From Dyella ginsengisoli LA-4 (lineage in GTDB: Bacteria > Pseudomonadota > Gammaproteobacteria > Xanthomonadales > Rhodanobacteraceae), in contig NZ_AMSF01000010.1 in NCBI RefSeq assembly GCF_000334915.1, forward strand, positions 62,001-126,000: a stretch of DNA of 64,000 nucleotides. Direction: 5' to 3'. Of this stretch, positions 3,833 to 38,181 are shown one piece after another. A program made the position numbers and the translations under genes. The notes below the pieces were generated by a model. That model made no database searches. It was not told the origin of the DNA and saw only the letters and a program-made list of their open reading frames with translations. The number at the start of each line of letters is the position of its first letter. Position 1 is the first letter of the stretch.

Positions 3833-5710
3833 ATGACCGCCGTCAACGACCACGCGCTGGATTTCCTCGACTGGGCCGACCGGTCCCCCGGTCGCGTTGC
3901 CCTGGCTGACGAGAGCCGGGCCCTCGACTACGCCGGGTTGCGCGTCAGGGTCATGACATTGGCGGCGCGGCTGGGCGCCATGGGGATTGGGCCGGGCGAT
4001 GTGGCCGGCGTGGCGTGCGACCGCTCTCTCGACAGCGTCGTGGCGATCCTCGCCGTGCTTGCCGCCGGCGCCGCCTACCTTCCGCTGGACCTGGGCTATC
4101 CCTCGACACGCCTGGCCCAGATGGTCGAAGACGCGCGCCCGCGGGCGATGCTGCTGCGGTCCTCGTCGGCGACGGCGGAACTGGCCGGCCTCGGCGTGGC
4201 GATGTTCGACATCGACGCGCCGGCGACGGTCGAGCCGCTGGCGGCACCGGTGACCGTCGATGCCTCGTGCGCCGCGTACGTGCTGTTCACCTCCGGCTCG
4301 ACCGGTCGTCCCAAGGGGGCCGTGCTGTCGCGGCGGGCGCTCGGCCACATGGTCGCCTGGCATCTGCGGCATCCGCGCCTGGCCGCGCCGGCGCGCACCC
4401 TGCAGTTCGCCACCCTGGGCTTCGACTCCTCGGTGCGGGACCTGTTCGCCACCTTCGCCACCGGCGGGACGCTGGTGCTCGCCGGCGAGGCCGACCGCCG
4501 CGATCCGTTCCGTCTGCTCGCGATGATGCGCGAGCAGCGCATCGAGCGGGCGTTCCTTCCCTACGTGGAGTTGCGCGCCATCGCCAATGCGCACGCTGGG
4601 GGCGGACCGCTGCCCGCCGCGCTGCGCGACCTGATGACCGGCGGCGAGGCACTGGCGATCACGCCAGCGATCCGCCGGCTGTTCGCCGAGCTGCCCGATG
4701 CGGTGCTGTACAACGAGTACGGCCCGACCGAGTCCTGCGTGTTCGTGACCAGCAAGCCGCTGTCGGGCGATTCCGCCGCCTGGCAGGATCGCCCGGACAT
4801 CGGCGATCCGCTGGATCACGTGCGCCTTTACGTGGCCGACGACGAGCTTCGGGTGCTGCCCGACGGAAGCGAAGGCGAACTGCTGATCGGCGGCGAAAGC
4901 CTCGCCGATGGCTACGTACACCGCCCCGACCTGACCGCCGAGCGCTTCGTGCGGGTTCGCACCGGTGGCGAGTGCGACGAGCGGGTCTACCGCAGCGGGG
5001 ATCGCGTGCGGCGGGAGGCGGATGGCCGCCTGGTATTTCTCGGGCGCGCGGACGACCAGGTGAAGATCGCCGGTTACCGGGTCGAGCTGGGCGAGGTCGA
5101 GGCCGCCCTGGCTGCGCATCCGCTGGTCGCCGAAGCGGCCGTGGTCGCGCCGGCCGGTGCCGAGGGGCGCCGACTGGTCGCCCACCTGGTCGCCAGGCCC
5201 GGGGCGCCGGTCGACTCCGAACTGCTCGACGTGCTGAAGCAGCACCTGGCCGAACGGCTTCCCGCCTTTGCGCGCCCGCAGCGACTGGTGCTCCACGACC
5301 GACTGCCGCTGACGCCCAATGGCAAGGCGGATAGACAGCGGCTGGAGGCGGAGTCCGTGGTGGCGCACGCACCCGCCGCGGCGACGCTGCCTGAGCATGC
5401 GACCGCGGAACAGCGCATCCTTGCCGCGTGGCGCGAGCTGCTCGAGCTCCCCTCGCTTCGAGCCGAGGACAACGTGTTCGACCACGGCGCCGATTCGCTG
5501 CGGGTGATGGCGGTGCTTCCGCGCCTGCAGGCGCTGGGCGTGGAGGGGTTGTCGGCCACGCGGGTCTACGAATTCCCGACCGCGCGGCAGCAGGCGCAGG
5601 CGCTGGCCGGTCATGCAGCCACCCAGCCGGCGCCATCACCGGTCAGGGGCGCCCAGCAGCGCGATGCCCTTGCGCGCTTGCGCGACCGTCACAGGAAGAC
5701 GAACGGATGA
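3833..5710 (+). CDS. NRPS loading protein: adenylation domain plus peptidyl carrier protein
   Basis: About 625 residues. The adenylation domain (about 10-500) has core A3 YVLFTSGSTGRPKG near residue 150, A5 NEYGPTE, A7 YRSGDRV, A8 GRADDQVKIAGYRVELGEVE and A10 PNGKADR. A carrier domain follows, with the phosphopantetheine Ser in HGADSLRVM at about residue 555. There is no condensation domain, so it would activate and load one acyl group and pass it to the next protein. Aligning by eye with GrsA gives the specificity residues D-S-R-F-M-G-E-V-F; the Asp that binds an alpha-amino group is present but the rest matches no code I know, so the substrate is open. The ATG at 3833 follows an Arg-rich frame that looks non-coding; the ribosome site is weak. 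Its stop overlaps the next start by 4 bases. Confidence 0.88.
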   Translation: MTAVNDHALDFLDWADRSPGRVALADESRALDYAGLRVRVMTLAARLGAMGIGPGDVAGVACDRSLDSVVAILAVLAAGAAYLPLDLGYPSTRLAQMVEDARPRAMLLRSSSATAELAGLGVAMFDIDAPATVEPLAAPVTVDASCAAYVLFTSGSTGRPKGAVLSRRALGHMVAWHLRHPRLAAPARTLQFATLGFDSSVRDLFATFATGGTLVLAGEADRRDPFRLLAMMREQRIERAFLPYVELRAIANAHAGGGPLPAALRDLMTGGEALAITPAIRRLFAELPDAVLYNEYGPTESCVFVTSKPLSGDSAAWQDRPDIGDPLDHVRLYVADDELRVLPDGSEGELLIGGESLADGYVHRPDLTAERFVRVRTGGECDERVYRSGDRVRREADGRLVFLGRADDQVKIAGYRVELGEVEAALAAHPLVAEAAVVAPAGAEGRRLVAHLVARPGAPVDSELLDVLKQHLAERLPAFARPQRLVLHDRLPLTPNGKADRQRLEAESVVAHAPAAATLPEHATAEQRILAAWRELLELPSLRAEDNVFDHGADSLRVMAVLPRLQALGVEGLSATRVYEFPTARQQAQALAGHAATQPAPSPVRGAQQRDALARLRDRHRKTNG

Positions 5711-8700
5711 ATGAGAAGGACGCCATCGACGGCATCGCCATCGTCGGCATGGCCGGGCGGTTTCCCGGCGCGGCCTCGGTGCGCGAGCTGTGGGACAACC
5801 TGCTCGCCGGCCGGGAGGGCATCACGCGCTTCGGGCCTGGCGAACTCTCGCCCGGGTTGCCGGCGGTACAGACCCGGCATCCGCGTTACGTGCCGGCGCG
5901 CGGCGTGCTGTCGGATGCCGATCGCTTCGACGCCGGGTTCTTCGGCATCGCTTCGCGCGAGGCGGTGCTGATCGATCCCCAGCAGCGGGTCTTCCTCGAG
6001 CTGGCCTGGAATGCACTGGAGGACGCCGGTATCGACCCGGCCCGTTTCCCGGGGAGCATCGGTGTCTATGCAGGCACCTCCAACAACACGTATCGGAAGC
6101 TGGTCGAATCGCGGACCGACCTGCTGGAGGCGGCCGGCGAATTCGCCGCGGCGATCGCCAGCGAAAAGGACTACGTGGCCACCCGCGTGGCACACCGCCT
6201 CGATCTCACCGGGCCCGCGCTGAGCATTCACTCCGCCTGTTCCACCTCGCTGGTGGCGGTGGCACAGGCCTGGTGGGCGCTGATGAGCTACCAGTGCGAT
6301 CTCGCGCTGGCCGGCGGGATAAACATCGTCGTGCCGCAGGAGTCGGGCTATGTCCCGGTGGACGGAGGCATCGAGTCGGAGGACGGGCATTGCCGGCCAT
6401 TCGACGCGGCGGCCACCGGCACGGTGTTCTCCTCCGGCGGCGGTGCCGTGGTGCTCAAGCGGCTGGCCGACGCGGTCGCCGACGGCGACACCATCTACGC
6501 GGTGATCCGCGGCGTGGGGGTCAACAACGACGGTGGCGACAAGGCCAGCTTCGGCGCGCCCAGCGTGCGCGGACAGGCCGCGGTGATCCGCCAGGCGCTC
6601 GACAGCGCGGGCGTCAGCGCCGCATCGATCGGTTACGTCGAAGGCCATGGCACCGCCACGCCGCTGGGGGATCCGATCGAGGTTGCCGCGCTCGACCGCG
6701 CTTTCGCCGAGGATGGTGCTGCGCCGGGGAGCTGCTGGCTCGGCTCGGTGAAGAGCAACTTCGGCCATCTCAATGCCGCCAGCGGCATCGCCGGACTGAT
6801 CAAGGCGGCGCTGGCGCTGCACCACGAGCGCATCCCGGCGACGCTGCATTACCGCACGCCGAATCCGCAGATCGATTTTTCCGCCAGCGCGTTCCGGGTG
6901 GCCGACCGCCAGATCGCCTGGCCCCGCGGCGGCGAGCCGCGGCGGGCCGGTGTCAGCTCCTTCGGTGTCGGCGGCACCAACGCCCACGTCATCCTGGAGG
7001 AGGCGCCACCGATGCCCGCATCGGGGCCGGGGCGCCGCCTGAACCTGTTGCCGCTCTCGGCTCGCGACGAGGCGGCGTTGCAGCGACGCGCGGAGCAACT
7101 CGCGGTGGCCTTGGCGGACGACGATGTTCCGGCGCTGCCGGACGTGGCCTGGACGCTGGCGATGGGCCGGCAGCCAATGGCCGCGCGCGGTTTCGTGGTT
7201 GCCGCCGATGTGCACCAGGCAAGCGAGCGCCTGCCCCGGATCGCCGCGCACGTCGCACCGGCGGAACCGCCATCGCTGGTGATGCTGTTCCCCGGCCAGG
7301 GAGCGCAACACGCAGGCATGGCAAGGGAACTGGCGGAGCACGAGCCGGTGTTCCGTCATGCATTCGAGCGTGGCTGCGCGCTCGCCAGCAGCTTGCTGGG
7401 TGAAGACCTGCGTGCGTTGATCCTGCCGGCAGCGGAGGGCGAGGACGAGGCCGCGCGACGGCTGGCCGAGACGCGATTCACCCAGCCGGCACTGTTCGTG
7501 GTCGAGTACGCGCTGGCCGAGTTGTGGGCGGCGTGGGGCCTGCATCCGGCGGTGATGATCGGCCACAGCATCGGCGAATACGTGGCTGCCTGCCGGGCCG
7601 GCGTGTTTTCGCTGGAGGACGCGTTGCGGCTGGTGGTCGCCCGCGGCGCGGCGATGTTCGCGCAGCCGCCGGGCGCGATGCTGGTGGTGCGGGAGGACGC
7701 CGACGCGCTGCGCGCTCGCCTGCCGCAGGGTGTGGAGATCGTCGGTTGCAATGCGCCGACACAGACCGTGCTCGGCGGCACCGACGCGGCCATCGAGGCG
7801 TTCGCCGCCACCCTGGCTGCCGAGGACGTCGCCTGCACCCGGCTGCGGGTCAGCCATGCCTTCCACAGCCACCTGATGGAGGGCGCCCTGCCGTTGTTCC
7901 GCCGGGCGTTCGATGGCGTCGCGCTGCACCCGCCGGAGCGGATCTTCTATTCCTGCGTCAGCGGCCAGCCGGTCACCGTGGAACAGGCGACCTCGATCGA
8001 CTACTGGTGCCGGCAGCTGCGCGCGCCGGTGCGTTTCGCCGATGCCGTGCGCCATGTGCTCGAACAGGGCCCCGCGTTGCTGCTGGAGGCCGGCCCGTCC
8101 CAGGCACTCAGCGGGTTGGTCCGCGGCATGCTCGACGGGCGCGGCAGGGTGGTGGCCAGCCTTGGGCCGGCCTCGCGCGCAGGCGACGCCCAGGAGCAGG
8201 TGCTGCGGGCGCTCGGTGAATGCTGGTGCGCCGGACTCGCCCCGGACTGGCCGGCCCTTCACGGCGAGGTGCCGCGGCGTCGCGTGTCGCTGCCCGGCTA
8301 CCCGTTCCACGGCAAGCGTTACTGGGTCGAGCCGGCGGCGACCGCGCCCGCCGCCATCGACATGACACCGGCGGCAGCGACCATGTCCGCGGCCTCGCCA
8401 TCCCCGGAGGAAACCGCAAGCATGCCGTCCGCCGCACCTTCCCCGAGTACCGTGCCACGACCGCTGCGGCTGGCTGTCGAACTGCGCGAGCTGTTCGGCA
8501 ACCTGGGCGGCGAGCCGCTGGATGCGCGGCACGATGCCGAGAGCTTCCTCGACCTCGGTTTCGACTCGCTGTCCCTGACCCAGGCCGCGCTCGCGGTCGA
8601 GCAGCGCTATGGCGTGAAGATCAAGTTCCGCCGCCTGATGGAGGACGTGGACAGCATCGGAAACCTGGCAGGGATGCTCGACGCCACCCTGCCGCCTGAC

Positions 8701-11700
8701 GCGCTGCCGGCGGCAGCCATCGCCGCGGCTCCGGTCCAGGGTCAGGGGGCAGGCGTGGCCGCGCCTTCCACACTGGCCCAGCTGATCCAGAACCAGATGG
8801 CATTGCTGCAGCAGCAGAGCGCCCTGCTGGCGAGCCTGTCCGGGCAGCCGCCGGGCGGTCAGGCTGGCGGATCGGTTCCGATCGCTGCACCGGCACTGCC
8901 GGCCGTGGCGGGCGACGAACTGGCCCCGGCCAACCTGAAGGAGCGCCCGTTCGGCGCGTCCGCGCGCATCACCACCGACCGCCATGGCGATTTCTCGCCG
9001 GCGCAGCGCGCCTGGCTGGCAACCTTCACCGAGGCGTACTGCCGGCGTACCCGGAGCTCGAAGGACTTCGCCCAGCAGCATCGCGCGCTGATGGCCGATC
9101 CCCGCGTGGTGACCGGCTTCAATCCGCAGTGGAAGGAACTGGTCTACCCGATCACCGTCGAGCGTTCCCTCGGCGCCCGGCTGTGGGACCTGGACGGCAA
9201 CGCCTACATCGACCTGCTCAACGGCTTCGGCGTGAACTTCCTCGGCTACCAGCCGGCGTTCGTCACCGCTGCGCTGCATGCGCAGGTCGATACCGGCGTC
9301 GAGATCGGTCCGCAGCACCCGCTGGCCGCCGAGGTGGCTCAGCTGATCAGCGACATGACCGGGATGGCCCGCGTCGGCTTCTGCAACACCGGCTCGGAAG
9401 CAGTGATGGGCGCCATGCGCGTGGCGCGCACGGTCACTGGCCGCAAGACCATCGTGGTGTTCCGCGACTCCTACCACGGCATCTTCGACGAGGTGATCGT
9501 GCGCGGTACCCGCACGCTGCGTTCGATCGCCGCGGCGCCGGGCATCCTCGCCAACGCGGTGGAGAACGTGCTGGTGCTGGACTACGGCACCGACGAGGCG
9601 CTGCGCATCATCGGCGAGCGTGGCCACGAACTGGCCGCAGTGCTGGTCGAACCGGTGCAGAGCAAACATCCGGAGCTGCAGCCGAAGGCGTTCCTGCAGT
9701 CGCTGCGCGGCCTGTGCGACCGGGCCGGCTGCGCGCTGATCTTCGACGAGATCATCACCGGCTTCCGCATGGCCCCGGGTGGCGCGCAGGAGGCGTTCGG
9801 CGTGCGCGCGGACCTGGCCACCTACGGCAAGATCATTGGCGGTGGCCTGCCGTTCGCCGCGATCGCCGGCAGCGCGAAATGGATGGATGCGCTGGATGGC
9901 GGCTTCTGGCAATTCGGCGACGACAGCTATCCGGGCGCAGGCGTGACCTATTTCGCGGGCACCTTCGTGCGGCATCCGCTGGCGCTGGCCGCGGCGAAGG
10001 CCGCGCTGCAGTGGATCCGGGAACAGGGGCCGCAGTTGCAGGCCTCGCTCAACGCGCGCACGCAGGACATGGTGGCGCGGCTCAATGCGCTCTTCGACGC
10101 GCGCCAGGCCCCGGTGACGGCCGTGGGTTACAGCTCGTTGTGGAAGCTGCGCGTCGATGACGGCCAGCCGTTCGCCAGCCTGCTGTGGTACCGGCTGCGC
10201 CATGCCGGACTGCATGTGTTCGAGCAGTTCAACTGCTTCCTCTCCGTGGCGCATGGAGATGCCGAGGTCGAGTGCATCGTCGCCGCCGTCACCGAGTCGG
10301 TGGACGACCTGCTGGGCGCCGGCATGCTGCTGCCGCGTCATGCCGCGGCCATGCCCGCGCCCGCGCCGGAGACCGATCGACTTCCGGCCAAGGTGCCGCT
10401 TACCGACGCGCAGCTCGGGCGCTGGCTGGGCATGCACTTCAGCGACGATATCGCGCCGGCCTTCAACGAATCGACGCAGCTCGGCTTCCGGGGTCCATTG
10501 GACGTCGATGTGCTGCGGCGCGCCTTCGACACGGTGGTGGCACGCCACGAAATCTTCTCGATGCGCTTTGCCGAGGACGGCAGCGGGCAGCTGTTCGAAC
10601 CGCCCGCCGCGGTGCGCCTTGAGTCGCTCGATCTCAGTGGTGGCGCCGATCGGCAGCAGCGGCTCGACGCCTTTGTCGCCGAGCAGTCGGCACGCCCGTT
10701 CGACCGCCTGCAGCCGCCCCTGCTGCGCGCCTGGCTGGTCAAGCTCGCCGACCAGGAGCACGCCCTGGTGATGGTGTCCCATCACATCGTGATGGACGGT
10801 TGGTCGCTCAGCGTGTTCCTGCGCGAGCTGGCCACGGGGTACAACGCCTTCCGCCAGGGCGCGGCGCCGGCGTGGCCGTCGGTGGATGCCTGGCGCCGGT
10901 TCGTGCTGGACGAACGCGCGCGCCGCGACGGCGCGGAAGGTCGCGAGTCGCTGGACTGGTGGCAGGCGCAGTACCGCACGCTGCCCGACCCGCTGGCGCT
11001 GCCGCTGGACCGTCCGCGCGGGCGCGATGGCGGCTTCCGCGGCGCGACTCTGGGCGGCCATCTGGACGGCGACGTGGCCAGGACCCTGCGTGAGGCGGCG
11101 CGGTCGCAGCGGGTCACCCTGTTCGCGCTGCTGCTCGGTGGCTTCTACGCGCTGCTGCAGCGTTTGTCCGGACAGGACGACCTGGTCTGCGGCATCCCCT
11201 TCGCCGGGCAGGCGGTGAGCCGTTACGGCCAGACGGTCGGCGATGCGGACAACACGTTGCCGCTGCGCATGGCGGTGGATCCGGACGAGTCGTTCGGCGC
11301 GCTGGTCAAGCGCGTGCAGGGCCGCCTGCTGGACGCCGGCGAGCACCAGGACGTCTCGATCGCCCGCATCGCGCAGGCGCTGAAGCTGCCGCGCGATACC
11401 GGACGCCTGCCGTTGGCGGAGGTGTTGTTCAACTTCAATCCGGCCGTGGCGGATACGCCGTGGGACGGCGTCGCGGTGACCCACGGGGACCTGCCCAAGC
11501 GCCACATGAACTGGGACATCGAGTTCCACTTCACCGAGCACGAAGGGCGGCTGGACTTCCTGTTCCACTACAACCCGGACCTGTTCGACGCGGCGACGAT
11601 CGAGCGCTGGAGCGGCTACCTGGGCGGGATCCTGCGCCAGGGCGCGGCGCGGCCGGAGCAGGCGATCGGCGACTTCGTGCTGATGGACGAGGCGGAGCGC

Positions 11701-14714: not shown

Positions 14715-15805
14715 GCGTCCGCAAGGTGATTCCCTGGCGCGGCGACCTGCGGGTACGGCTGGGCACGTGGTGCTACCGGACCGGGTTGCTGGGGCCGCTG
14801 CGCCAGGTGCGCGGCTGGCGGATCCGGGACCTGCGCATCCTCGCCTATCACCGTGTAATCACCTTGCCCGACCCGGAGCTTTTCGAGTTCGACCTCGAAG
14901 TTGTCAGTGCCTCGGCCGAGCGCTTTCGCGAGCAGATGCTGCTGCTCAGGCGCAAGTTCCACCCGATCTCGCTGGGTGAGGTGGTCAGGCGCATCGAGGC
15001 CGGTCAGCCGATGCCCCGCAATGCGGTGGCGGTGACGTTCGACGACGGTTACGACGACAACTACCGTGTCGCGTTCCCGATCCTGCGCGAGCTCGGTGTG
15101 CCGGCCACCTTCTTCGTTTCCACCGGACACGTCGACGACGGTCTGCCGTTTGCCTATGACTGGTTGGCACACATGGTGCTGAGCTCGACCGAGCCGCGCC
15201 TGCAACTGCCCGAGGTGGGTCTGGACGTGCGGCTGCCGGCGGGCCGGGACCTGCGGCGCAAACTGGTCGAGAACCTGCTCGACCGGCTGAAAAGTCTCGA
15301 CGATGCCGCGCAGGCCGCGTTGATCACCGGGCTGGAGAAGGCCTGGAACATGCCGCGCGACCGCGCCGTGGCGGATTGCCGCCCGATGGGCTGGTCGCAG
15401 CTGCGCGAGATGCACCAGGCCGGTTTCGAGATCGGGTCGCACGGCGTCACCCATCGCATGCTGGCCAAGCTGCCGCAGGGCGAGCTGGAGTGGGAGTTGT
15501 CCGAGTCGCATCGGGTGCTGGAGCGCGAGCTGGGCAGCGCCCCGAGCCTGTTGTCGTATCCCGTCGGCGGCGATCGCGCGTTCGACGCACGGGTGATCGA
15601 GGCGGCGCGCGCCGCAGGCTACCGGCTCGCCTGCAGCTACATCAGCGGTACCAATCCCGATCCCGCGGTGAACCGCTACGCCCTTTACCGGTTGCCGGTG
15701 GAGCGCCAGATGGGCCCAGGCTGGTTCGCCGCCATGGTTTCGCTTCCCGGCCTGATGGCTTACCCCACGGCCCGTCGTACCGGCGCTTCCGCCGGGGAGT
15801 CCTGA
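14708..15805 (+). CDS. Polysaccharide deacetylase (NodB homology)
   Basis: About 365 residues. The NodB metal-binding motif VTFDDGYDDNY lies at about 109-119 (Asp112/Asp113), the second motif appears as EIGSHGVTHRML, and the family's later motif as LLSYPVGG. The protein should remove N- or O-acetyl groups from a glycan, exposing amines when the sugar is a HexNAc. No signal peptide is obvious, so action on cytoplasmic lipid-linked sugars is possible. It overlaps the upstream glycosyltransferase by 7 bases (ATGGTGA) and the next start by 1 base. Deacetylases of this kind are standard members of exosortase-A-associated polysaccharide loci. Confidence 0.85.
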   Translation: MVSVRKVIPWRGDLRVRLGTWCYRTGLLGPLRQVRGWRIRDLRILAYHRVITLPDPELFEFDLEVVSASAERFREQMLLLRRKFHPISLGEVVRRIEAGQPMPRNAVAVTFDDGYDDNYRVAFPILRELGVPATFFVSTGHVDDGLPFAYDWLAHMVLSSTEPRLQLPEVGLDVRLPAGRDLRRKLVENLLDRLKSLDDAAQAALITGLEKAWNMPRDRAVADCRPMGWSQLREMHQAGFEIGSHGVTHRMLAKLPQGELEWELSESHRVLERELGSAPSLLSYPVGGDRAFDARVIEAARAAGYRLACSYISGTNPDPAVNRYALYRLPVERQMGPGWFAAMVSLPGLMAYPTARRTGASAGES

Positions 15806-17070: not shown

Positions 17071-18629
17071 ACGACCGTCGCAATACCCTTCGCAACACCG
17101 CGTTCTCGTCGATCGGGATCTACGCCGAGTATTTCCTCGGCATGGTCGCGTCGATCGTGATCGCCCGGCACCTGGGGCCGGGTCATTACGGCGTGTACAG
17201 CATGTTCATCTGGTTCGCCGCGATCGGCATCGTGGTGACCAACTCGGGGATCACCACCGGCGTGATCAAGTTCATCTCCGAGTTCCGCGGCAACGGCAAC
17301 GAGGCGATGATCCGCCCGCTGCTGAGCTACATGCGCCGGGTGCAGGCCTGGCACATGGTGCTGGTGGTCGGCCTGGCCGGGGCGGGCCTGGCGCTGGCCG
17401 GGCATCGCTGGGCCAACACACCTGACCTGGCCGAGTTCCTGCTGCTCGCCGCCGCAGTGGCGATGCGTGCGCCTTACATGTTCAACATCGCCGTGGCGAA
17501 GGGCTTCGAAGCCTTCGACGCCACGGCGCGGGTATCGATGGTTGCCGCGCCGCTGAACCTCGCTCTGGTGGTCGGCGCGGTACTGCTGAAGGCGCCGATG
17601 TTCTGGTTCCTGGTGGTGTACGCCACTTCCAGTGCGATCTTCCTCGGCATTTCCTGGTGGCAGGCGCGGCGGCTGGTGGCCACGGTGCCGCCAGCAGCAC
17701 CGATGGCCAGTGAGCTGAACCAGCGCATCCGCCGCCATCTGCGCATCGTCTCGGTGACCATCGTGGTGGGCTTCCTGATCACCAGCGACGTGGAGATCGT
17801 CTTCCTCAATACCTTCGCCAGCTCGGCCGACGCCGGCTACTTCAAGGTCGCCTATCAGCTGGCGACCGGCATGATGCTGCTGGTGCCCGGAGTGTTCGCC
17901 GCAGTGCTGCTGCCGATGATGTCCAAGGCGCTCAGTCGCGGGCGCGACCAGGCCGCGCAGAAGTTCGTGGCGGTCACGACCTACCTGGTGATGCTGTGCG
18001 CACCGGTGGTGATCTTCGGCGTGTGCTTCGCTGCACCGATCATCCAGCTGCTCTATGGCAGCCGTTACGGTGCCGCCGCACCGGTGTTTGCCGTGGCGAT
18101 CCTGGCCAGCGCCATCGCCACCGCCAACCAGGGAGCGACGAGCCTGCTGGTGAGTGCGGACCGGCAGCAGACGATTCTCGTCATGGTGGTGGTGTTCGGT
18201 GTGATCAAACTCAGCCTGGACGCCCTGCTGATCCACCAGTTCGCATTGCGGGGCGCGATGGTGGCGATCCTGACCGAAGCGGTATCCAGCACCACCGCCT
18301 ACGTGCTGATCGGCCTGCGGGTGAGCGGTGCGCGTCTGGACGGCCGGCGCCTGGCCGCGGTGGCGCTGGCTGCGGCCGGTGCCGCCTTGGTCGCGCTGCC
18401 GGTGCTGCTGCTCCGGATGCCCGTGTTGCTGACCGTGCTGCTGGGAGGAGTGGTCGTGCTGGGAAGTTATGGGGTACTCACCCTGCTGCTGCCGTGCTGG
18501 AATCAGGGCGACATCGCGCAGCTGCAGGAATTGCACGCGCGCTTCGCGCGCAACTGGCCGCAGCCCCTGCACCGGCTGTTGCTGCGCGCCGGCGAGCGCG
18601 CCAGCGCGCGGGCGGAGCGGGCGGCATGA
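17067..18629 (+). CDS. Wzx-type polysaccharide flippase (MATE/MVF superfamily)
   Basis: About 520 residues with some 12-14 hydrophobic segments, opening NTAFSSIGIYAEYFLGMVASIVIARHLGPGHYGVYSMF, the typical first helices of RfbX/Wzx flippases. It would move undecaprenyl-linked repeat units from the cytoplasmic to the periplasmic face for the ligase/polymerase encoded just upstream. Overlaps of 4 bases on both sides place it firmly in the operon. A C-terminal basic and amphipathic tail (ARFARNWPQPLHRLLLRAGERASARAERAA) extends past the last helix. Confidence 0.85.
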   Translation: MNDRRNTLRNTAFSSIGIYAEYFLGMVASIVIARHLGPGHYGVYSMFIWFAAIGIVVTNSGITTGVIKFISEFRGNGNEAMIRPLLSYMRRVQAWHMVLVVGLAGAGLALAGHRWANTPDLAEFLLLAAAVAMRAPYMFNIAVAKGFEAFDATARVSMVAAPLNLALVVGAVLLKAPMFWFLVVYATSSAIFLGISWWQARRLVATVPPAAPMASELNQRIRRHLRIVSVTIVVGFLITSDVEIVFLNTFASSADAGYFKVAYQLATGMMLLVPGVFAAVLLPMMSKALSRGRDQAAQKFVAVTTYLVMLCAPVVIFGVCFAAPIIQLLYGSRYGAAAPVFAVAILASAIATANQGATSLLVSADRQQTILVMVVVFGVIKLSLDALLIHQFALRGAMVAILTEAVSSTTAYVLIGLRVSGARLDGRRLAAVALAAAGAALVALPVLLLRMPVLLTVLLGGVVVLGSYGVLTLLLPCWNQGDIAQLQELHARFARNWPQPLHRLLLRAGERASARAERAA

Positions 18630-20014
18630 GCGCCCCGGTGTTCGCGCGGATCTACGAGGCGGCCTTCCGCCACGTACTGTTCCCGGCCTACGAAAGCGGC
18701 CTGCGCCGCCGGCACACGCTGCGCTGGCTGGCCGACTACGAGCGCGACCAGTGGCTGTCGGCCGACGAGGTACAGGCGCTGCAGTGGCAGCGGCTGAAGG
18801 CCTTGCTGGAACATTGCTACCGCGAGGTGCCGTTCTATCGCGAGCGTTTCCGCGCGATCGGCGCGACGCCCGACGACATCCGCAGCCTCGCCGACTACGC
18901 GCGTCTGCCGCGACTGACCAAGGCCGACATCCGCGCACACTTCGCCGAGCTGCAGGCGCCATCGCTGGCCGGGCAGATGGTCTACAAGGCGACCGGCGGC
19001 TCCACCGGCGAGCCGCTGCGTTTCGGCTGCGATCGCGGCAGCAACGACCGCCGCACCGCGGTGATGTGGCGCGGCTACGGCTGGGCCGGTGCGCGCATGG
19101 GCCGGCGCACGCTGTATCTGTGGGGCGGTGCGGTGGGTCAGCCCAGTCGCTCCAAGCTGCTGAAGGACCGCCTCTACAACGCCGCGTTTGCGCGCCGGAT
19201 GGTCGACAGCTTCGGCATGAGCGAGGCGACCATGGCCGAATACGCCACGGCGATCGACCGCTACCGGCCGGAGATCATCGTCTCCTACGTCGGGCCGCTG
19301 GTGCGCCTGGCCGAGTGGATGCTCGCCACCGGGCGTCGCGTGCATGCGCCGGTGGCGATCCTCGGTGCAGCCGAGGCGCTGCACGGGTTCCAGCGCGAGC
19401 TGCTGGAGCGTGCGTTCGGCTGCCCGGCGTTCAACACCTACGGCTGTCGCGAGTTCATGCTGATCGCCGCCGAGTGCGAGCACCGCCACGGCCTGCACGT
19501 GAACGCCGACCACCTGCTGGTGGAGCTGGAGGCGATGCCCGGCGGGCACGGTCCGGCAGAGGTGGTGGTCACCGACCTGTTCAATTACGGCATGCCGTTC
19601 CTGCGCTATGCCAACGGCGACGCGGCCACGCCGTCCGAGCGCACCTGCGCCTGCGGGCGGGGCCTGCCGCTGGTGGAGCGTGTCGACGGTCGGGTGCTCG
19701 ATGCGATCCGAACGCCGGCCGGCCACGTGCTGCCGGGCGAATTCTTCCCGCACATGCTCAAGGACGTGCCGGGGGTGGAGCGCTTCCAGCTGGTGCAGCG
19801 CCAGCTGGATCGGCTCGACCTGTCGATCGTGCGCACCGACGGTTTCGACGAGGCCTCGCTGGCCTACATCCGTCGCGAGGTGGGCAAGAAGCTCGGCGAC
19901 AGCGTGTCGCTTCAGGTGCACTTCGTCGACGACATCCCGCTCACGCCCAGCGGCAAGCTGCGGGTGACCGTCTCCGAGCTGCCGCCGGACGCGCGTGCCA
20001 CGGGGGCGCCGTGA
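18626..20014 (+). CDS. PaaK/CapK-like adenylate-forming enzyme
   Basis: About 462 residues. The phosphate-binding loop of the phenylacetate-CoA-ligase branch is visible (YKATGGSTGEPLRF), as are a family-typical FNTYGCRE in the A5 position, TDLFNYGMPFLRYANGD and a C-terminal LTPSGKLR. A Cys pair (RTCACGRGLP) is characteristic of CapK-like proteins in polysaccharide clusters. It would adenylate a carboxylic acid and may transfer it to CoA, a carrier protein or a sugar. In this operon it is a candidate for feeding or off-loading the PKS-NRPS line, but nothing in the sequence gives its acid substrate. Start and stop overlap neighbours by 4 bases. Confidence 0.8.
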   Translation: MSAPVFARIYEAAFRHVLFPAYESGLRRRHTLRWLADYERDQWLSADEVQALQWQRLKALLEHCYREVPFYRERFRAIGATPDDIRSLADYARLPRLTKADIRAHFAELQAPSLAGQMVYKATGGSTGEPLRFGCDRGSNDRRTAVMWRGYGWAGARMGRRTLYLWGGAVGQPSRSKLLKDRLYNAAFARRMVDSFGMSEATMAEYATAIDRYRPEIIVSYVGPLVRLAEWMLATGRRVHAPVAILGAAEALHGFQRELLERAFGCPAFNTYGCREFMLIAAECEHRHGLHVNADHLLVELEAMPGGHGPAEVVVTDLFNYGMPFLRYANGDAATPSERTCACGRGLPLVERVDGRVLDAIRTPAGHVLPGEFFPHMLKDVPGVERFQLVQRQLDRLDLSIVRTDGFDEASLAYIRREVGKKLGDSVSLQVHFVDDIPLTPSGKLRVTVSELPPDARATGAP

Positions 20015-21126
20015 ACGTCACGCACGTGGTGGAAAACCTCAACCGCGGCGGGCTCGAGCGGATGGTGCTCGACCTGGTCGGCTTGCAGCAGCGTCAGGGC
20101 CTGACGCCCCAGGTCGTGTGCGTATTCGAGGCCGGCTCGCTGGCCGGGGAGCTCGATGCCCTCGGCGTACCGCTGCGGGTCTGCGGCAAACGCAGGGGGC
20201 CGGACCTGCGCGCGCTGTACCGCCTGCGCCGTGCCGTGCGCGATCATCGCACCGAAGTGCTGCACACCCACAACGCCGCCGCGCACTACCAGGCGGTGCT
20301 GGCGACGCTGGGGTTGCCCGGGCGTCGCCGCGTGATCAACACCCGGCACGGCATGGGAGCCGGCCCCAGCGCGTCGCGTCGCGATGCGCTGTATCGCGCC
20401 GCGATGGGGCACACCGACGCGGTGGTGACCGTCTGCGAGGCCGCCTGCCGCGACGCGGTGGCGCGTGGCCTGGTGCCCGAGTCGCGCGCGGTGGTGATCC
20501 CCAACGGGATCCGCGTCGAGCGCTTCGCCGCCGCCGGCGAAGCCGCCCGCATGGCGCTGAAGCAGGCCCTGGGCCTGGCGCCGACGACCCGCCTGATCGG
20601 TACGGTCGGCCGGCTGAACTGGGCCAAGGACCAGGACAGCCTGATCCGCGCCTTCGCCCGCGTGCATGCAACCCGACCCGATACGGCGCTGGTGCTGGTC
20701 GGCCAGGGCGAACTGCGTGACGACCTGGAAGACCGCGCCCGGCTGGAGGGCGTGGCATCGGCGGTGCATTTCCTCGGCGACCGCAATGACGTGGTGCAAC
20801 TGCTGCAGGGCTTCGATCTGTTCGCGCTGTCTTCGGTCAGCGAGGGCTATTCGATGGCGCTGCTGGAAGCGTCGGCCAGCGCGCTGCCCATCGTCGCCAC
20901 CGATGTGGGCGGCAATGCCGAGATCGTCCACCACGGGCACACCGGCATGCTGGTGCCGGCCGGCGCGCCGGAATCGCTGGCCGTGACGCTGGGCGCACTG
21001 CTGGATACACCGGACGTGGCGACCGCACTGGGTGACGCCGCGCGCGCCTGGGTGCTCGAGCATGGCTCGCTGGAGGCGATGGCAGAGCGCTACGCCAGCC
21101 TGTACGCGGGAGACGTTGCGGCATGA
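20011..21126 (+). CDS. Family 4 glycosyltransferase, XrtA-locus type
   Basis: About 371 residues, GT-B fold. The N-terminal domain has the acceptor-side loop NLNRGGLERMVLDL and the C-terminal domain has GTVGRLNWAKDQDSLIRAF and the E-x7-E donor motif region SSVSEGYSMALLEASASALPIVATDVGG. The opening THVVENLNRGGLE matches the group of sugar transferases named for exosortase/PEP-CTERM loci, as far as I recall that family. Start is GTG, overlapping the upstream TGA (GTGA). Confidence 0.83.
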   Translation: MNVTHVVENLNRGGLERMVLDLVGLQQRQGLTPQVVCVFEAGSLAGELDALGVPLRVCGKRRGPDLRALYRLRRAVRDHRTEVLHTHNAAAHYQAVLATLGLPGRRRVINTRHGMGAGPSASRRDALYRAAMGHTDAVVTVCEAACRDAVARGLVPESRAVVIPNGIRVERFAAAGEAARMALKQALGLAPTTRLIGTVGRLNWAKDQDSLIRAFARVHATRPDTALVLVGQGELRDDLEDRARLEGVASAVHFLGDRNDVVQLLQGFDLFALSSVSEGYSMALLEASASALPIVATDVGGNAEIVHHGHTGMLVPAGAPESLAVTLGALLDTPDVATALGDAARAWVLEHGSLEAMAERYASLYAGDVAA

Positions 21127-22307
21127 GCCTGCGCATCCTCGCCCTCACCAATCTGTTTCCGACCCGCTGGGATCCTCACCGCGGCGCCTTCAACCGCCAG
21201 CAGTTCGAGCGCCTGGGGCAGCGCCACGAGGTGGAGGTGATCACCGCGGTGCCGCTGCCGGAGCGTCTGCGTGGACGCGGCGCCGGCGAACCCCTGACGA
21301 TTGCCGGTCTGCGCCTGCGCACGTTCGTCTTCGTCTACCTGCCGCGCGTCGCCCGCTCGCTGCACGCGCTCTTCTGGGCCGCATCGCTGCTCGCGCAGCA
21401 GGGATGGCACCTGCTGCGCGGGCGCTACGACTGCGTACTGGCCAGCTGGGCCTATCCCGATGCCGCCGCCGCCGGCTGGCTGGCGCGGCGCATGGGCTGG
21501 CCCTACGTGGTCAAGGTGCACGGCAGCGACCTCAACGTGCAGGCGGAGGACCCGGCCCGGCGGCCGCAGATCCGCAGGGCGCTGGTGGGCGCGCGGGCCG
21601 TGGTGGCGGTGAGCCGGGCGCTGGCCGACAAGGCGGTGGCGCTCGGAGTCGAGCCGGCGCGGGTCCATGTGGTCTACAACGGCGTCGATCATGCGCGCTT
21701 CTCGCCAGGCTCGCGGCAGGAGGCGCGTCATCGTCTGGGCCTGTCCGAGCGCGCTCCGGTGCTGCTCTATGTCGGCAACCTCAAGCTGAGCAAGGGCTGC
21801 ATGGACCTGCTCGAGGCCTTTGCTCCGGTCGCGAAGGCGCAAGCAGCGGCCCAGCTCGTGTTCGTCGGTGCCGGCGAGTGCCGTGACGCGCTGCGCGCGC
21901 GTGCCGATGAACTCGGTCTCGGCGGTGCTGTCCGTCTGGTCGGGGCGACACCGCATGCCGATCTGCCGGACTGGTTCCGCGCCGCGACCCTGCTTTGCCT
22001 CCCCAGCCACAACGAGGGCGTGCCCAACGTGGTGCTGGAGGCCATGGCCTGCGGCATCCCCGTGGTGGCCACGCGCGTGGGCGGAATTCCCGAGGTGGTT
22101 CCGGACGAGGCCGGATTGCTGGTTCCGGTGCGTGATCGCGATGCGCTTGCCGAGGCGCTGGTCGAAGCCATTGCCCTTCCATGGGACACTGGATGCATCC
22201 TGGAACACGCCAGGCAGTTCAGTTGGGAACGGAATCTGCAATCGCTGTCGGACATTCTCGAGGCTGCGGCAGCCGACTCCCCTCTCCCTAATTCGCTTCC
22301 GACATGA
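21123..22307 (+). CDS. Family 4 glycosyltransferase
   Basis: About 394 residues, GT-B fold. The N-terminal domain begins RILALTNLFPTRWDPHRGAF, and the C-terminal domain has LLYVGNLKLSKGCMDLLEAF and PSHNEGVPNVVLEAMACGIPVVATRVGGIPEVV, the retaining family 4 donor site. It should add one sugar from a nucleotide donor during repeat-unit assembly at the cytoplasmic face. Four-base overlaps tie it to both neighbours. Confidence 0.85.
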   Translation: MSLRILALTNLFPTRWDPHRGAFNRQQFERLGQRHEVEVITAVPLPERLRGRGAGEPLTIAGLRLRTFVFVYLPRVARSLHALFWAASLLAQQGWHLLRGRYDCVLASWAYPDAAAAGWLARRMGWPYVVKVHGSDLNVQAEDPARRPQIRRALVGARAVVAVSRALADKAVALGVEPARVHVVYNGVDHARFSPGSRQEARHRLGLSERAPVLLYVGNLKLSKGCMDLLEAFAPVAKAQAAAQLVFVGAGECRDALRARADELGLGGAVRLVGATPHADLPDWFRAATLLCLPSHNEGVPNVVLEAMACGIPVVATRVGGIPEVVPDEAGLLVPVRDRDALAEALVEAIALPWDTGCILEHARQFSWERNLQSLSDILEAAAADSPLPNSLPT

Positions 22308-22951
22308 ACATCCGGCCCAAGAAACACCAGATTCTCGGTCTGCTGCCGCGCTCGATCGTGCAGACGCACGGCGACCGCGCCGGCACCGGCCGCTTCCTCA
22401 GCTTCGACGATGGTCCGCATCCCGAGCACACCCCGCGCCTGCTCGATCTGCTCGCGGCACATGGCGTGCGGGCGAGCTTTTTCGTGGTGGGCCGCCACGC
22501 CGAACAGTATCCGTCGATCGTCGAGCGGATCGTCCGGGACGGGCACCTGCTGGGCAACCATTCCTACAGCCATACCCGTTTCGCACACATGAGCACCGCG
22601 GACCAGGTCGCGGACCTGGAACGTGCCGACCGGCTGCTGGCGGCCTTCGACGGGCGGGCGCGGCACCGGATCCGCACGCCGCAGGGACACGTGACGCTGC
22701 CGCTGCTGCTGCATTTCGCCCGCAGCGGCCGCAGCCTGGCCTACTGGTGCTACGACAGCATGGACTACCACGATGACGATGCCGCCGTGGTCGTGAGGCG
22801 CCTGCAGACACAGCCTCCGCGCGCCGGCGACATCGTGCTGATGCACGACGACGGGGCTGCCGGCATGCACGCCCTGGCCGAGCTGTTGCCGGCGTGGTGC
22901 CGGGACGGATGGACCTTCCACGCCCTCGAACAGGATGCTGCATGCGAGTGA
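22304..22951 (+). CDS. Short polysaccharide deacetylase
   Basis: About 215 residues, only the NodB core. Visible motifs are LSFDDGPHPEHT (motif 1), GNHSYSHTRF (motif 2, HxxxH-like), RTPQGH in the position of the RxPyG motif, WCYDSMDYHDDD (motif 4) and IVLMHDDG (motif 5). Substitution of Ser for the usual Thr before FDDG is mild. All metal-binding residues appear present, so activity is likely. It is the second NodB-type enzyme in this operon, which suggests two deacetylation steps or two substrates. The 3' end overlaps the next glycosyltransferase by 10 bases. Confidence 0.83.
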   Translation: MNIRPKKHQILGLLPRSIVQTHGDRAGTGRFLSFDDGPHPEHTPRLLDLLAAHGVRASFFVVGRHAEQYPSIVERIVRDGHLLGNHSYSHTRFAHMSTADQVADLERADRLLAAFDGRARHRIRTPQGHVTLPLLLHFARSGRSLAYWCYDSMDYHDDDAAVVVRRLQTQPPRAGDIVLMHDDGAAGMHALAELLPAWCRDGWTFHALEQDAACE

Positions 22952-24114
22952 TCTACCACCACCGCACCCGCGGTCGCGACGTCGAGGGCGTGCATATCCG
23001 CGGCATCGTCGGCGCATTGCGCGGTCTCGGTCACGACGTCACCATCGTCTCGTTTCCCGGCGCGGATCCGGAACAGGCCCCGTCCGCGGGTGGCGGCGCT
23101 CCAAGGCGCAAGGGGCGGCTGGCCTCGCTGGTTACGCGGCTGCCCGGCGTGGTGTTCGAGCTGGCCGAGCTGGCCTACAACGCGGTCACCCTGGTGCGGA
23201 TGGGCCGCGTGCTGAAGCGCGTGCGGCCGGACATGGTCTACGAGCGCTACTCGCTGTTCCTGTTCGCCACCGTGTGGCTGGCACGCCGGCACGGCGTGCC
23301 GATCGTGCTGGAGATCAACGATTCGGCGCTGGTCGAGCGTGTGCGCCCCCTCTACATGAAGGGACTGGCGCGGCGGATCGAGCGCTGGTGCATGCGTCAT
23401 TGCACCGGGCTGGTGTTCATCTCCAGCTACTTCCGCGACCAGGCACAGGCAGCCTATGGCGACATCGCCCCCTGCGTGATTTCGCCGAATGCGGCCGACC
23501 TGGCGCATTTCGATCCGGCGCGTTTCGACCGCGAGGCACTGCGCCGCGAGCGCGGGCTGGAGGGCCGGGTGGTGTGCGGCTTCATCGGTTCGTTCGCCCG
23601 CTGGCACGGGGTGGACGGCTTCGTGCGCGCGATCGCCCCGCAACTGGCGCGGGCACCGGAGCTGACCCTGCTGCTGGTCGGCGACGGCGTCACCCTGCCG
23701 GAAGTGCGCGATCTGGTCGACCGTGAACGGCTCGGCCTGCAGGTGCGCCTGCCGGGCCGCGTGCCGCACCCGGACATCGCCAGCTGGGTTGCTTGCATGG
23801 ACTATGCCGTGTTGCCCGATTCCAACGAGTACGGCTCGCCGATGAAGCTGTTCGAGTTCATGGCGATGGGCGTGGCGGTGGTCGCGCCGGACTACGCGCC
23901 GGTGGCCGAGGTCACCGAGGATGGCCGCACCGGCTGGCTGTTTCCGCGACGCGATACGCCGGCGTGCATCGAGCGCCTGCTGGCACTGGCGCCACGCGAC
24001 GAGGAGCGCCGGCGCGTCGGTGCCGCGGCGCGTGAGTACATCGCGCGCGAGCGGCAGTGGCGCAACAACGCCGAGCAGCTGCTGGCACTGGCATTCGGAG
24101 GGAAGGGCGGATGA
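22942..24114 (+). CDS. Family 4 glycosyltransferase
   Basis: About 390 residues, GT-B fold. Key stretches are RVIYHHRTRGRDVEGVHI at the start, PDMVYERYSLFLFATVWLAR, the second-domain opening VCGFIGSFARWHGVDGFVRA, and the donor site PDSNEYGSPMKLFEFMAMGVAVVAPDYAPVAEVTEDG. The ATG at 22942 lies 10 bases inside the deacetylase gene; the frame upstream of it adds residues that overlap the deacetylase coding sequence and is not needed. Function is addition of a sugar to the growing repeat unit; the sugar is unknown. Confidence 0.83.
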   Translation: MRVIYHHRTRGRDVEGVHIRGIVGALRGLGHDVTIVSFPGADPEQAPSAGGGAPRRKGRLASLVTRLPGVVFELAELAYNAVTLVRMGRVLKRVRPDMVYERYSLFLFATVWLARRHGVPIVLEINDSALVERVRPLYMKGLARRIERWCMRHCTGLVFISSYFRDQAQAAYGDIAPCVISPNAADLAHFDPARFDREALRRERGLEGRVVCGFIGSFARWHGVDGFVRAIAPQLARAPELTLLLVGDGVTLPEVRDLVDRERLGLQVRLPGRVPHPDIASWVACMDYAVLPDSNEYGSPMKLFEFMAMGVAVVAPDYAPVAEVTEDGRTGWLFPRRDTPACIERLLALAPRDEERRRVGAAAREYIARERQWRNNAEQLLALAFGGKGG

Positions 24115-25271
24115 TGGTCGTGGCAATCGGCGTGCTGGTGGTGCTGGTCGGCGGCTTGCTCGCCCTGGCGAAGTTGCTGCGCGGGCGCAACATGCACATC
24201 TGGCTGGGCGGCTATCTGCGTCGCCGCGTCCCCAGGGTCGATGGGCCCGTGCACGTGATGTTCTGTTTCGTCGACCACTACGAGCCGGCCTGGGGCAAGG
24301 TCGATCTGGCCACCCAGCGCGCCCGCGTCGACCGCTGGTGCACCGACTACCGCGCGATGGCCTCGAAACACCGCGATGCCGACGGTCGCCATCCTCAGCA
24401 CAGCTTCTTCTACCCGGAGGAGGAGTACCTCCCCGAGCACCTGGACAAGCTGGCCGCGCTCTGCGCCGACGGCTTCGGCGAGATCGAGATCCACCTGCAC
24501 CACGATGACGACACGCCGGAGAACTTCCGTCGCACCATCGCCGGTTTCTGCCGGACGCTGCACGATCGCCACGGCGCGCTGAGCCGCGATCCGGCCACCG
24601 GGGAGCTCACCTTCGGCTTCATCCATGGCAACTGGAGCCTGGACAACTCGCGCGCCGACGGCCGCTGGTGCGGCCTCAACAACGAGCTGATCCTGCTGCG
24701 CGAACTGGGCTGCTACGCCGACTTCACCCTGCCGTCGGCGCCCAGCGACACGCAGACGCGCCTGAGCAACGCGATCTACTACGCGACCGACGACCCCGAA
24801 CGTCCGAAGTCGCACGACACCGGCGTGCCGGTGCGCGTGGGCGGCACGCCCAGCGGCGACCTGATGATCGTGCAGGGGCCGCTGGGACTGAACTGGGCCG
24901 AGCGGCGCAAGGGCATCGTTCCGCGCATCGAGAATGCGGACGTGCGGCGTGCCTGCCCGCCGACACGCGCCCGCGTCGACCTGTGGGTGCGTACCGGCAT
25001 CCATGTCGAGGGGCGACCGGAGTGGGTGTTCATCAAGGTGCACACGCACGGCACGCAGGAGCGCGACATGGACACCCTGCTGGGCCAGGCCATGCACGAC
25101 ATGCACAGCTATCTCGAGAGCGCCTACAACGACGGCAAGCGGCACGTGCTGCATTACGTGACCGCACGCGAGGCCTACAACATCATCAAGGCGGCCGAAG
25201 CGGGCAAGTCGGGCAATCCCAACGATTGGCGCGACTTCGTGCTGCCGCCGCCGCCGCATCGCGCCGGGTAA
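24111..25271 (+). CDS. Conserved membrane-anchored protein of unknown function in a polysaccharide locus
   Basis: About 386 residues. One N-terminal hydrophobic segment (VVAIGVLVVLVGGLLALAKLL) is followed by a soluble domain I cannot assign with confidence. It has clusters that could bind metal: MFCFVDHYEP, EIEIHLHHDDDT, GFIHGNWSLDNS and KVHTHGTQERDMDTLLG. The order of acidic and His motifs is reminiscent of a divergent NodB-type deacetylase, but the canonical FDDG is absent. The start is ATGATG with a GGAGGGAAGGG ribosome site; the first ATG overlaps the upstream stop. It is the last gene of the plus-strand operon and ends 12 bases from the convergent hydrolase gene, with no terminator hairpin seen between them. 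Confidence 0.6.
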   Translation: MMVVAIGVLVVLVGGLLALAKLLRGRNMHIWLGGYLRRRVPRVDGPVHVMFCFVDHYEPAWGKVDLATQRARVDRWCTDYRAMASKHRDADGRHPQHSFFYPEEEYLPEHLDKLAALCADGFGEIEIHLHHDDDTPENFRRTIAGFCRTLHDRHGALSRDPATGELTFGFIHGNWSLDNSRADGRWCGLNNELILLRELGCYADFTLPSAPSDTQTRLSNAIYYATDDPERPKSHDTGVPVRVGGTPSGDLMIVQGPLGLNWAERRKGIVPRIENADVRRACPPTRARVDLWVRTGIHVEGRPEWVFIKVHTHGTQERDMDTLLGQAMHDMHSYLESAYNDGKRHVLHYVTAREAYNIIKAAEAGKSGNPNDWRDFVLPPPPHRAG

Positions 25272-25283
25272 GCGGCCACGGGA

Positions 25284-38092: not shown

Positions 38093-38102
38093 TGAAATCA
38101 AG

Positions 38103-38127: not shown

Positions 38128-38181
38128 CTTTTCCGGTGAGGCAACACCTAGGCAACGGCCGACACGGCTCGCAACCAAAAA

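Follow-up and report, generated by a model that had tools for sequence, protein, structure and literature searches.

A hybrid PKS-NRPS synthase heading an exopolysaccharide operon in Dyella ginsengisoli LA-4, and a possible acyl decoration of the polymer

The locus

The DNA considered here, referred to as the window, is a stretch of 64,000 nucleotides from the draft genome of Dyella ginsengisoli LA-4 (4.55 Mb, 99 contigs, 100% complete; positions 62001-126000 of contig C10 of this genome, G000), and its main feature is a hybrid of polyketide synthase (PKS) and nonribosomal peptide synthetase (NRPS) that heads a set of exopolysaccharide genes. From 3833 to 25271 there are twelve plus-strand genes (starts set according to codon usage), and they overlap at all eleven junctions, in order by 4, 4, 7, 1, 4, 4, 4, 4, 4, 10 and 4 bases. 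A sequence-only reading had pointed out these twelve genes with overlaps of 1-10 bases, had named the first two as A-PCP and KS-AT-ACP-AMT-C-A-PCP genes, and had taken those after the synthase for a glycan operon; the junction letters and codon-usage starts, the Pfam domains, and the Pfam and NCBIfam matches bear out the three statements, respectively. Its expression "translationally fused" holds in so far as overlapping stop and start codons couple the genes, but they do not encode one protein. Its coordinates, 3833-25271, do contain the genes, but the actual unit is larger, from about 6 kb upstream of the window to 31263. The twelve genes are as follows.

3833..5710, plus strand: A-PCP starter (loading) gene, 625 aa (Pfam AMP-binding, AMP-binding_C, PP-binding)
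5707..13590, plus strand: KS-AT-ACP-AMT-C-A-PCP synthase, 2627 aa (Pfam, motifs, A-domain codes)
13587..14714, plus strand: GT2 glycosyltransferase (Pfam, NCBIfam)
14708..15805, plus strand: polysaccharide deacetylase, DAC1 (Pfam PF01522)
15805..17070, plus strand: membrane protein of the Wzy/O-antigen-ligase family (Pfam PF04932)
17067..18629, plus strand: Wzx-type flippase (Pfam PF13440/PF01943)
18626..20014, plus strand: PaaK/CapK-like AMP-forming ligase (NCBIfam below cut-offs, PDB matches to PaaK, no Pfam family)
20011..21126, plus strand: GT4 glycosyltransferase, TIGR03088-like (NCBIfam, below cut-off)
21123..22307, plus strand: GT4 glycosyltransferase (NCBIfam, below cut-offs)
22304..22951, plus strand: polysaccharide deacetylase, NodB/PdaB-like, DAC2 (Pfam PF01522, NCBIfam)
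22942..24114, plus strand: GT4 glycosyltransferase, TIGR04063-like (NCBIfam, below cut-off)
24111..25271, plus strand: UNK, a protein with one N-terminal hydrophobic stretch, used here as the marker of the glycan operon (no Pfam or NCBIfam family)

No sigma-70-like site was found by scanning 5600-25300 (1.1 expected), and terminator-like sites numbered 8 against 6.3 expected. The scan is weakly informative, because 3300-4000, the expected place of the operon promoter, gave no sigma-70-like site either.

The synthase and its glycan operon are followed on the other strand by an export operon, which ends with a pair of alpha/beta hydrolase genes.

25284..26099, minus strand: HYD1, free-standing alpha/beta hydrolase with C114-D137-H248, a thioesterase or acyltransferase candidate (hydr1_PEP-like, conservation, model)
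26096..26848, minus strand: HYD2, alpha/beta hydrolase with Arg114 at the nucleophile place, putative partner of HYD1 (hydr2_PEP-like)
26845..28158, minus strand: EpsL-like outer-membrane beta-barrel (Pfam/NCBIfam)
28314..29090, minus strand: XrtA-type tyrosine autokinase (TIGR03018, below cut-off)
29087..30598, minus strand: XrtA-system polysaccharide chain-length determinant (TIGR03007, above cut-off)
30670..31263, minus strand: XrtA-system polysaccharide export protein (TIGR03027, above cut-off)

Here too, overlaps of 4 bases join HYD1 to HYD2, HYD2 to the EpsL gene, and the kinase to the chain-length gene. Upstream of the window, a 4'-phosphopantetheinyl transferase (PPTase) gene directly precedes the gene for the initiating sugar transferase, which is of the XrtA type (TIGR03013 above cut-off) and gave the only PF02397 match found in the genome; a second match to the PPTase superfamily lies elsewhere in the genome. 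On its other side the PPTase gene is preceded by nucleotide-sugar genes, namely a TviB-type UDP-GlcNAc dehydrogenase (above cut-off) and a TviC-like epimerase (below cut-off), and the glycan therefore probably contains N-acetyl-hexosaminuronic acid. The machinery of an assembly line is spread in this way over the glycan genes: the PPTase stands between the nucleotide-sugar genes and the initiating transferase, the synthase heads the glycan operon, and HYD2-HYD1 end the export operon.

The hydrolase pair

In an alignment of 26 HYD1 and 24 HYD2 rows (25 and 23 distinct genes, as G224 is in each twice; proteins of <=200 aa, including the cut HYD1 frames of G161 and G063, were left out), Cys114, Asp137 and His248 of HYD1 are each present in 26/26 rows, and the nucleophile place of HYD2 is Arg in 24/24. 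The confident HYD1 model (mean pLDDT 87, pTM 0.85) puts Cys114 after strand 108-113, Asp137 after 130-136 and His248 after 238-243. By strand order rather than by inspected coordinates, this fits a thioesterase-like plan, with the nucleophile after strand 5, the acid after strand 6, which we take to be a mark of NRPS/PKS thioesterase-like enzymes, and the histidine after the last strand. Foldseek matches of HYD1 are esterases and monoglyceride lipases, with the thioesterase DcsB at rank 19. By eye, neither hydrolase has a signal peptide. Against the TIGR03100/TIGR03101 pair of models, HYD1 scores 92.5 bits with "hydrolase 1, exosortase A system-associated" (cut-off 168.45) and HYD2 61.1 bits with "hydrolase 2, exosortase A system-associated" (cut-off 202.75); judged by these scores, the two are related to the exosortase A-associated hydrolases yet outside the model cut-offs. 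In a locus of another genome (L228 of G501:C2), a single 621-aa open frame covers both hydrolase 2 and hydrolase 1, and this natural fusion favors the idea that they work as a pair.

Recurrence in the family

Is the junction of synthase and glycan genes an accident of this genome? The genome is a draft in 99 contigs, which would leave room for chance adjacency or an assembly artefact. Relatives refute this explanation, as the same synthase-glycan junction is present in a single-contig genome (G066) and in 13 further regions. In the 233 genomes of the family, with the AMT stretch as query, a full-strength synthase match (>=383 bits, the next match listed being 272 bits) was obtained in 104, and weaker aminotransferase matches in most others (229/233 at E <=1e-30). 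UNK is present in 94/233, with 58-98% identity in the 93 others. The two coincide in 82 genomes, while 22 have the synthase only, 12 UNK only and 117 neither (Fisher p 7e-29, for species that share ancestry and are not independent events); a by-genus tally for the tie with UNK gives 14/26. The genes share one contig within 45 kb in 74 of the 82 (median distance 16.9 kb) and lie on different contigs in 8. In 14 of 21 relatives' regions GT2 comes directly after the last synthase gene; the two genes overlap by 4 bases in four of these regions and are 19-47 bases apart in the other ten. The tie of the synthase to polysaccharide genes, which the sequence-only reading had seen in one genome and had suggested following across others, is real, conserved and recurrent.

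Both helpers follow the synthase. HYD1 (threshold E <=1e-15) was found in 100/233 genomes: in 96/104 with the synthase and 4/129 without (p 4e-50). Among genomes with UNK it accompanies the synthase in 82/82 and is present in 4/12 without the synthase, these four being drafts (G043, G047, G060, G133); it was found in none of the 117 genomes lacking both synthase and UNK, and in 0/20 with a full-length exosortase. In the 96 genomes it lies within 9 kb of the synthase in 14, farther away on the same contig in 64 (60 of them within 45 kb), and on other contigs in 18. In G088, G106, G123 and G103 the distance exceeds 45 kb (76, 88, 399 and 465 kb), and in these four, as in G173 and G074 (6/6 read), a run of EXPORT-CHLEN-TYRK-EPSL-HYD2-HYD1 ends with HYD1. 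The other placement is seen in G028, G215, G224 and G231, where the synthase is directly followed by HYD2 and HYD1; G028 and G224 have a different set of glycan genes with XrtA-type export genes within about 40 kb. Thus, the pair either comes after the synthase or closes a polysaccharide export operon, and we take this placement to be the strongest link between synthase and polysaccharide apart from the operon itself. The PPTase gene directly precedes the initiating transferase in 14 of 15 genomes with synthase and UNK (exception G103) and in 0 of 3 without the synthase (G019, G025, G164). This count covers genomes with a complete initiating transferase and the DNA preceding it; dropped were stretches without an initiating transferase (e.g. 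L259 of G120 and L262 of G021) and those in which it is cut at the stretch start (L021, L025, L027, L053), and G066, G064 and G100 are represented by another stretch.

UNK itself has many invariant His, Asp and Glu residues. Its AF2 model is weak (mean pLDDT 59.7), and the best Foldseek match, a chitin deacetylase (E 4e-3, TM 0.36; none at E <=0.001), gives a weak structural hint of a deacetylase-like barrel. After UNK some relatives have a formyltransferase-like gene (9133-9921 in L054 of G100, by Pfam; at 31935 in the G149 region), possibly for a further decoration of the glycan.

The glycan operon without the synthase

Among the 12 genomes with UNK and without a full-strength synthase match, G024, G043 and G047 were left unread, another contig was read in G030, the stretch of G133 starts inside the operon, and G060 has an NRPS gene at a contig edge despite lacking such a match. 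In the stretches of six genomes the operon is present and the synthase is not; the operon begins with DAC1 in G019, G021, G025 and G033 and with GT2 in G164 and G177. The glycan genes can persist, then, without the synthase. In G164 the synthase and HYD1 are absent genome-wide and the PPTase gene is absent before the initiating transferase, while GT2 is immediately preceded by short stretches that match a PCP and the last part of an A domain (best E 1.8e-6 among the queries used), which looks like the remnant of a deleted synthase. Nearby on the other strand, G019, G021 and G025 have genes for an 82-aa protein, an AMP-ligase-like protein and a third protein, whose counterparts in G023 (L186, 9419-12194) match carrier-protein, AMP ligase and NAD-synthase families; a look-alike is also present in G018.

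These genomes lend no support to one part of the sequence-only reading, which had tentatively placed the substituent on amines exposed by the deacetylases. DAC2 stays without the synthase in G019, G025, G033, G164 and G177 (in G021, also synthase-less, only a short DAC2 frame was called), and DAC1 stays in G019, G021, G025 and G033; as both persist, nothing seen here ties the deacetylases to the synthase.

The predicted product and its variation

By eye, the motifs of KS, AT and carriers (two PP-binding stretches by Pfam), the AMT lysine and the condensation histidines are all intact in the 2627-aa synthase, and the AT is presumably of the malonyl type. Pfam reported no KR, DH or ER domain in this protein, and no thioesterase or reductase domain. 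The closest PDB relative of AMT is mycosubtilin synthase subunit A (E 2.6e-117). The code of the first A domain, D-S-R-F-M-G-E-V-F-K by alignment, could not be assigned to a substrate; it recurs in G149, in an additional NRPS with an A domain that shares 69% identity over 387 residues. The second code, DILQLGLIWK, we take to be glycine-like, as it is in many relatives. In 21 relatives' regions the first code is proline-like in 10, valine-like in 9, threonine-like in 1, and unassigned in G066 as in the window. The order of amino acid, malonyl, transamination and glycine would give a beta,gamma-diamino acyl glycine. Many relatives have a further module added to the synthase; in several, the final A domain in the second NRPS protein seems degenerate, with an unreadable code (for example L053 of G100, 12569-18976), which suggests a silent last module.

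Within the genus, the synthase seems to have undergone an exchange of its front part while the glycan operon stayed constant. Between the window and G064, identity is 48% for the first A domain, 72% for KS, 63% for AT, 57% for ACP, 85% for AMT, 79% for C and 89% for the second A domain, and it is 90-97% from GT2 to UNK. G064 has a fused starter of the proline type with two Cupin_8 genes ahead of it, while in the window and G066 the starter is a gene of its own with a different code, and no cupin gene lies between a lyase-like gene and the synthase. Two cupin-like genes precede the synthase in both proline-type loci G064 and G028 (Pfam Cupin_8 for G064), and a Cupin_8 gene is also present in the valine-type G100.

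A proposed mechanism and its alternatives

What may a peptide-polyketide line produce in such a place? We favor, at a probability of roughly 0.6 and from gene content, that the repeat unit of the exopolysaccharide carries an acyl group made by the assembly line. The PPTase would arm the carrier proteins, and the A-PCP protein would load an amino acid, with proline-like or valine-like codes in most relatives read. KS-AT would add one malonyl unit, AMT would turn the beta-ketone into a beta-amine, and the second module would add glycine, so that a beta,gamma-diamino acyl-glycyl thioester with free amines is formed. HYD1, with HYD2 as a non-catalytic partner, might then take the acyl chain on Cys114 and pass it, in the cytosol, to the lipid-linked repeat unit at a hydroxyl or an amine; HYD1 is proposed for release and transfer because no thioesterase domain was found in the synthase. 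The decorated unit would be flipped by Wzx, the units joined by the Wzy-like protein, and the polymer secreted by the XrtA-type exporter. The side group may be exchangeable, given that the 5' half of the synthase differs within the genus over glycan genes that are 90-97% alike (window versus G064).

The HYD1 step can be thought of otherwise. HYD1 might be a type II editing thioesterase only, another enzyme releasing the product, which would be compatible with a bound or a free product alike. Its size, its free-standing nature and the eight synthase genomes in which it is missing would suit such a role. We hold it unlikely, since the same kind of pair is found beside ligase/decarboxylase modules without any multi-step line to edit, HYD2 is kept though it has no nucleophile, and no other release domain is present in the synthase line.

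The acyl-peptide might also be a terminal cap, a primer, or a lipid or cell-surface anchor of the glycan in place of a repeat-unit substituent. The gene evidence is the same for both, and PKS genes of capsule loci, rkpA/wcbR, offer a precedent (PMC3908369). This seems quite improbable, as an XrtA-type polyprenyl-phosphate initiating transferase is encoded in the locus itself and the predicted product would be short and polar.

Several observations weigh against a repeat-unit substituent. No acceptor-specific transferase was identified. HYD1 is absent in 8/104 synthase genomes; G103 has synthase and UNK without a PPTase gene before its initiating transferase, and no PPTase gene is seen by the initiating transferase in G028, G215, G224 and G231, which combine the synthase with another glycan set (<2 kb of upstream DNA in two of them); and shared ancestry underlies all the co-occurrence counts. 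Outside and inside the family, a scan of named records gave at least 80 synthase loci, which is not a census. HYD2-HYD1 were among the matches listed behind the synthase (flank <=10 kb) in 11/54 named loci, a count that omits 26 of the at least 80 loci, all of <=38% identity. The synthase contig carries a polysaccharide export gene at a distance of up to 35 kb in 6/22 named genomes, two of the six from the home family, and for these reasons a general tie to exopolysaccharides in far taxa is not claimed. Xenophilus azovorans, X. aerolatus and an Aquabacterium metagenome-assembled genome have the synthase, HYD2, HYD1 and a PPTase-like gene with no glycan genes in 20-40 kb downstream, 40 kb of a Lautropia locus contain no HYD and no export genes, and Bacteroidota and cyanobacterial loci have no HYD match among the matches listed and no export gene within 35 kb. 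Synthase sets without glycan genes are found, therefore, and the module can live alone.

Such loci are what one would expect if the product were a free secreted small molecule, e.g. a biofilm-phase antibiotic, a signal or a metal binder, for which the operons are shared for co-expression and HYD1 releases the chain by hydrolysis or cyclisation. The solitary sets of Xenophilus and Aquabacterium, and the AMT synthases of Pedobacter, Winogradskyella, Nostoc and others that have no export gene within 35 kb, agree with it, and ordinary natural-product lines have the same set of domains. A PKS/NRPS cluster of Luteibacter mycovicinus has been reported as a secondary-metabolite cluster, the word "polysaccharide" being absent from the main text of the report (PMC11165876). 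In the home family, however, the synthase, PPTase and HYD pair are spread over three glycan transcription units, the tie to UNK persists across genera, HYD1 stays with the export operon even where that operon is distant, and no dedicated transporter or resistance gene was recognised by Pfam or NCBIfam among the operon's proteins. We put a free molecule at odds of perhaps one in four.

If the substituent is real, a wider idea may be put forward, tentatively and with somewhat less than even confidence: there would be a class of exopolysaccharides with peptide-polyketide groups that are built on carrier-protein lines and moved to lipid-linked glycans by a HYD1+HYD2 transferase, in which HYD1 brings the Cys nucleophile and HYD2 is a twin lacking one; the exosortase A module of ligase, decarboxylase, carrier and hydrolases 1 and 2 would be its minimal form, and exchange of the synthase front half would change surface chemistry between close relatives. 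It would join natural-product annotation, which would see a metabolite cluster here, with polysaccharide annotation, which would pass over the synthase, and would give hydrolases 1 and 2 of exosortase-type loci a testable job. Cationic beta-amino acid groups would be predicted on the polysaccharides of the 82 sampled species with synthase and UNK, and A-domain codes would predict the decoration species by species. As a whole, the sequence-only reading is partly supported: its observation was right and understated, and its interpretation was right in direction.

Neighbouring genes

One further plus-strand gene, whose membership in the unit is uncertain, lies after the gene for the initiating sugar transferase and before the synthase operon.

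3..1766, plus strand: 788-aa protein without a family, 3' part

Between it and the synthase, the minus strand has genes for a methyltransferase-domain protein and a small DnaJ-domain protein (1748-2668 and 2790-3416), and a relative of the DnaJ type is also encoded close to the synthase in several relatives. Farther along the window, a prophage- or satellite-like element occupies 38016-51127, from a tRNA-Thr gene (38016-38091) to an integrase gene (49718-51127, minus strand), and contains primase/helicase, virion-structural-protein-like and unknown genes.

Comparison with known systems

Among the nearest known systems are the exosortase A (XrtA/PEP-CTERM) exopolysaccharide loci, which have an acyl ligase, a decarboxylase, a carrier protein and hydrolases 1 and 2. 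The window shares with them the XrtA-type TIGR03027, TIGR03007 and TIGR03013 proteins and the HYD2-HYD1 pair, but it has a multimodular PKS-NRPS at the place that a single ligase has in those loci, 19 comparison loci have Asn at the position of the HYD1 Asp, and there is no exosortase in the genome (0 matches to PF09721). The sequence-only reading had likened the locus to exosortase A loci, and the export protein, chain-length determinant and initiating transferase, all above the XrtA-type cut-offs, sustain the likeness, whereas the absence of an exosortase does not; an exosortase-dependent system was rejected on that ground. Within the family, full-length exosortases occur in 20/233 genomes, 0/20 with the synthase, and weak or partial ones in 16 more, 7 of them with the synthase. 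As for the ligase and the pyridoxal phosphate (PLP) decarboxylase of such loci, the listed matches to TIGR03099 in the genome reach at most 219.6 bits (cut-off 478.45), and the window's two A domains score only 194.7 and 210.7 bits against TIGR03098 (cut-off 592.35; no genome-wide search was made with this model). The PLP decarboxylase is above cut-off in 6/233 family genomes, of which five also have the synthase, in the same locus in G018, G020 and G023. Simple replacement of the ligase/decarboxylase module as a general rule was rejected, as these three hold both in one locus. The earlier proposal that the synthase "replaces or elaborates" the exosortase module is therefore kept in part: the synthase shares its HYD2-HYD1 partners with the module, but strict replacement does not agree with five genomes that hold both. 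Nor do the two hydrolases belong to what was replaced, as had been assumed, for relatives of both are still at 25284-26848.

For comparison, 27/274 genomes of the class matched TIGR03101 at E <=1e-20 (16 above cut-off), and 20 loci were compared. Hydrolase 1 has the Cys in 20/20 and hydrolase 2 the Arg in 20/20, with the genes side by side as in the window. At the position of Asp137, the 19 loci with no KS match have Asn, and the synthase-linked L237 has Asp. Those 19 have a decarboxylase (51-63% identical) in 12, only a ligase-like match in 3 and neither in 4. By sequence kinship, one kind of HYD pair serves two kinds of carrier-protein module. L237 (G444:C24), which is outside the family, has a synthase whose AMT is 55% identical, followed by HYD2 and HYD1; its hydrolase-2 match falls within a 1320-aa open frame and may be fused to the NRPS. 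No description of the function of hydrolases 1 and 2 of exosortase loci, nor of a PKS-NRPS locus of the present kind, was found among the matches listed from the open-access literature.

McyE has the domain order KS-AT-ACP-AMT-C-A-PCP, and lines of the McyE, mycosubtilin and iturin type use a fatty or aryl starter. The window's synthase has the same order, and its AMT is nearest, among solved structures, to mycosubtilin synthase subunit A; unlike them, it has an amino-acid starter and no thioesterase, and sits in a glycan operon.

RkpA and WcbR are fatty-acid-type mono-modular PKSs with reductive domains. The window's synthase differs from them in its NRPS modules, aminotransferase domain and amino-acid building blocks, with no KR, DH or ER reported. 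The likeness is in location, as these type I PKS genes stand inside a capsular polysaccharide biosynthesis and export cluster (PMC3908369). In Acetobacteraceae, type-1 PKS clusters have the PKS beside an aminotransferase, glycosyltransferases and capsular proteins; unlike the window's line, the PKS is a single KS-AT-DH-ER-KR-PP module described as iterative, and the section on these clusters proposes no link to a polysaccharide (PMC8776678). PKS genes in capsule loci (rkpA/wcbR) and Acetobacteraceae PKS clusters with capsular genes are thus already known (PMC3908369, PMC8776678), and what is new here is that the helper pair and the PPTase are distributed over the glycan transcription units.

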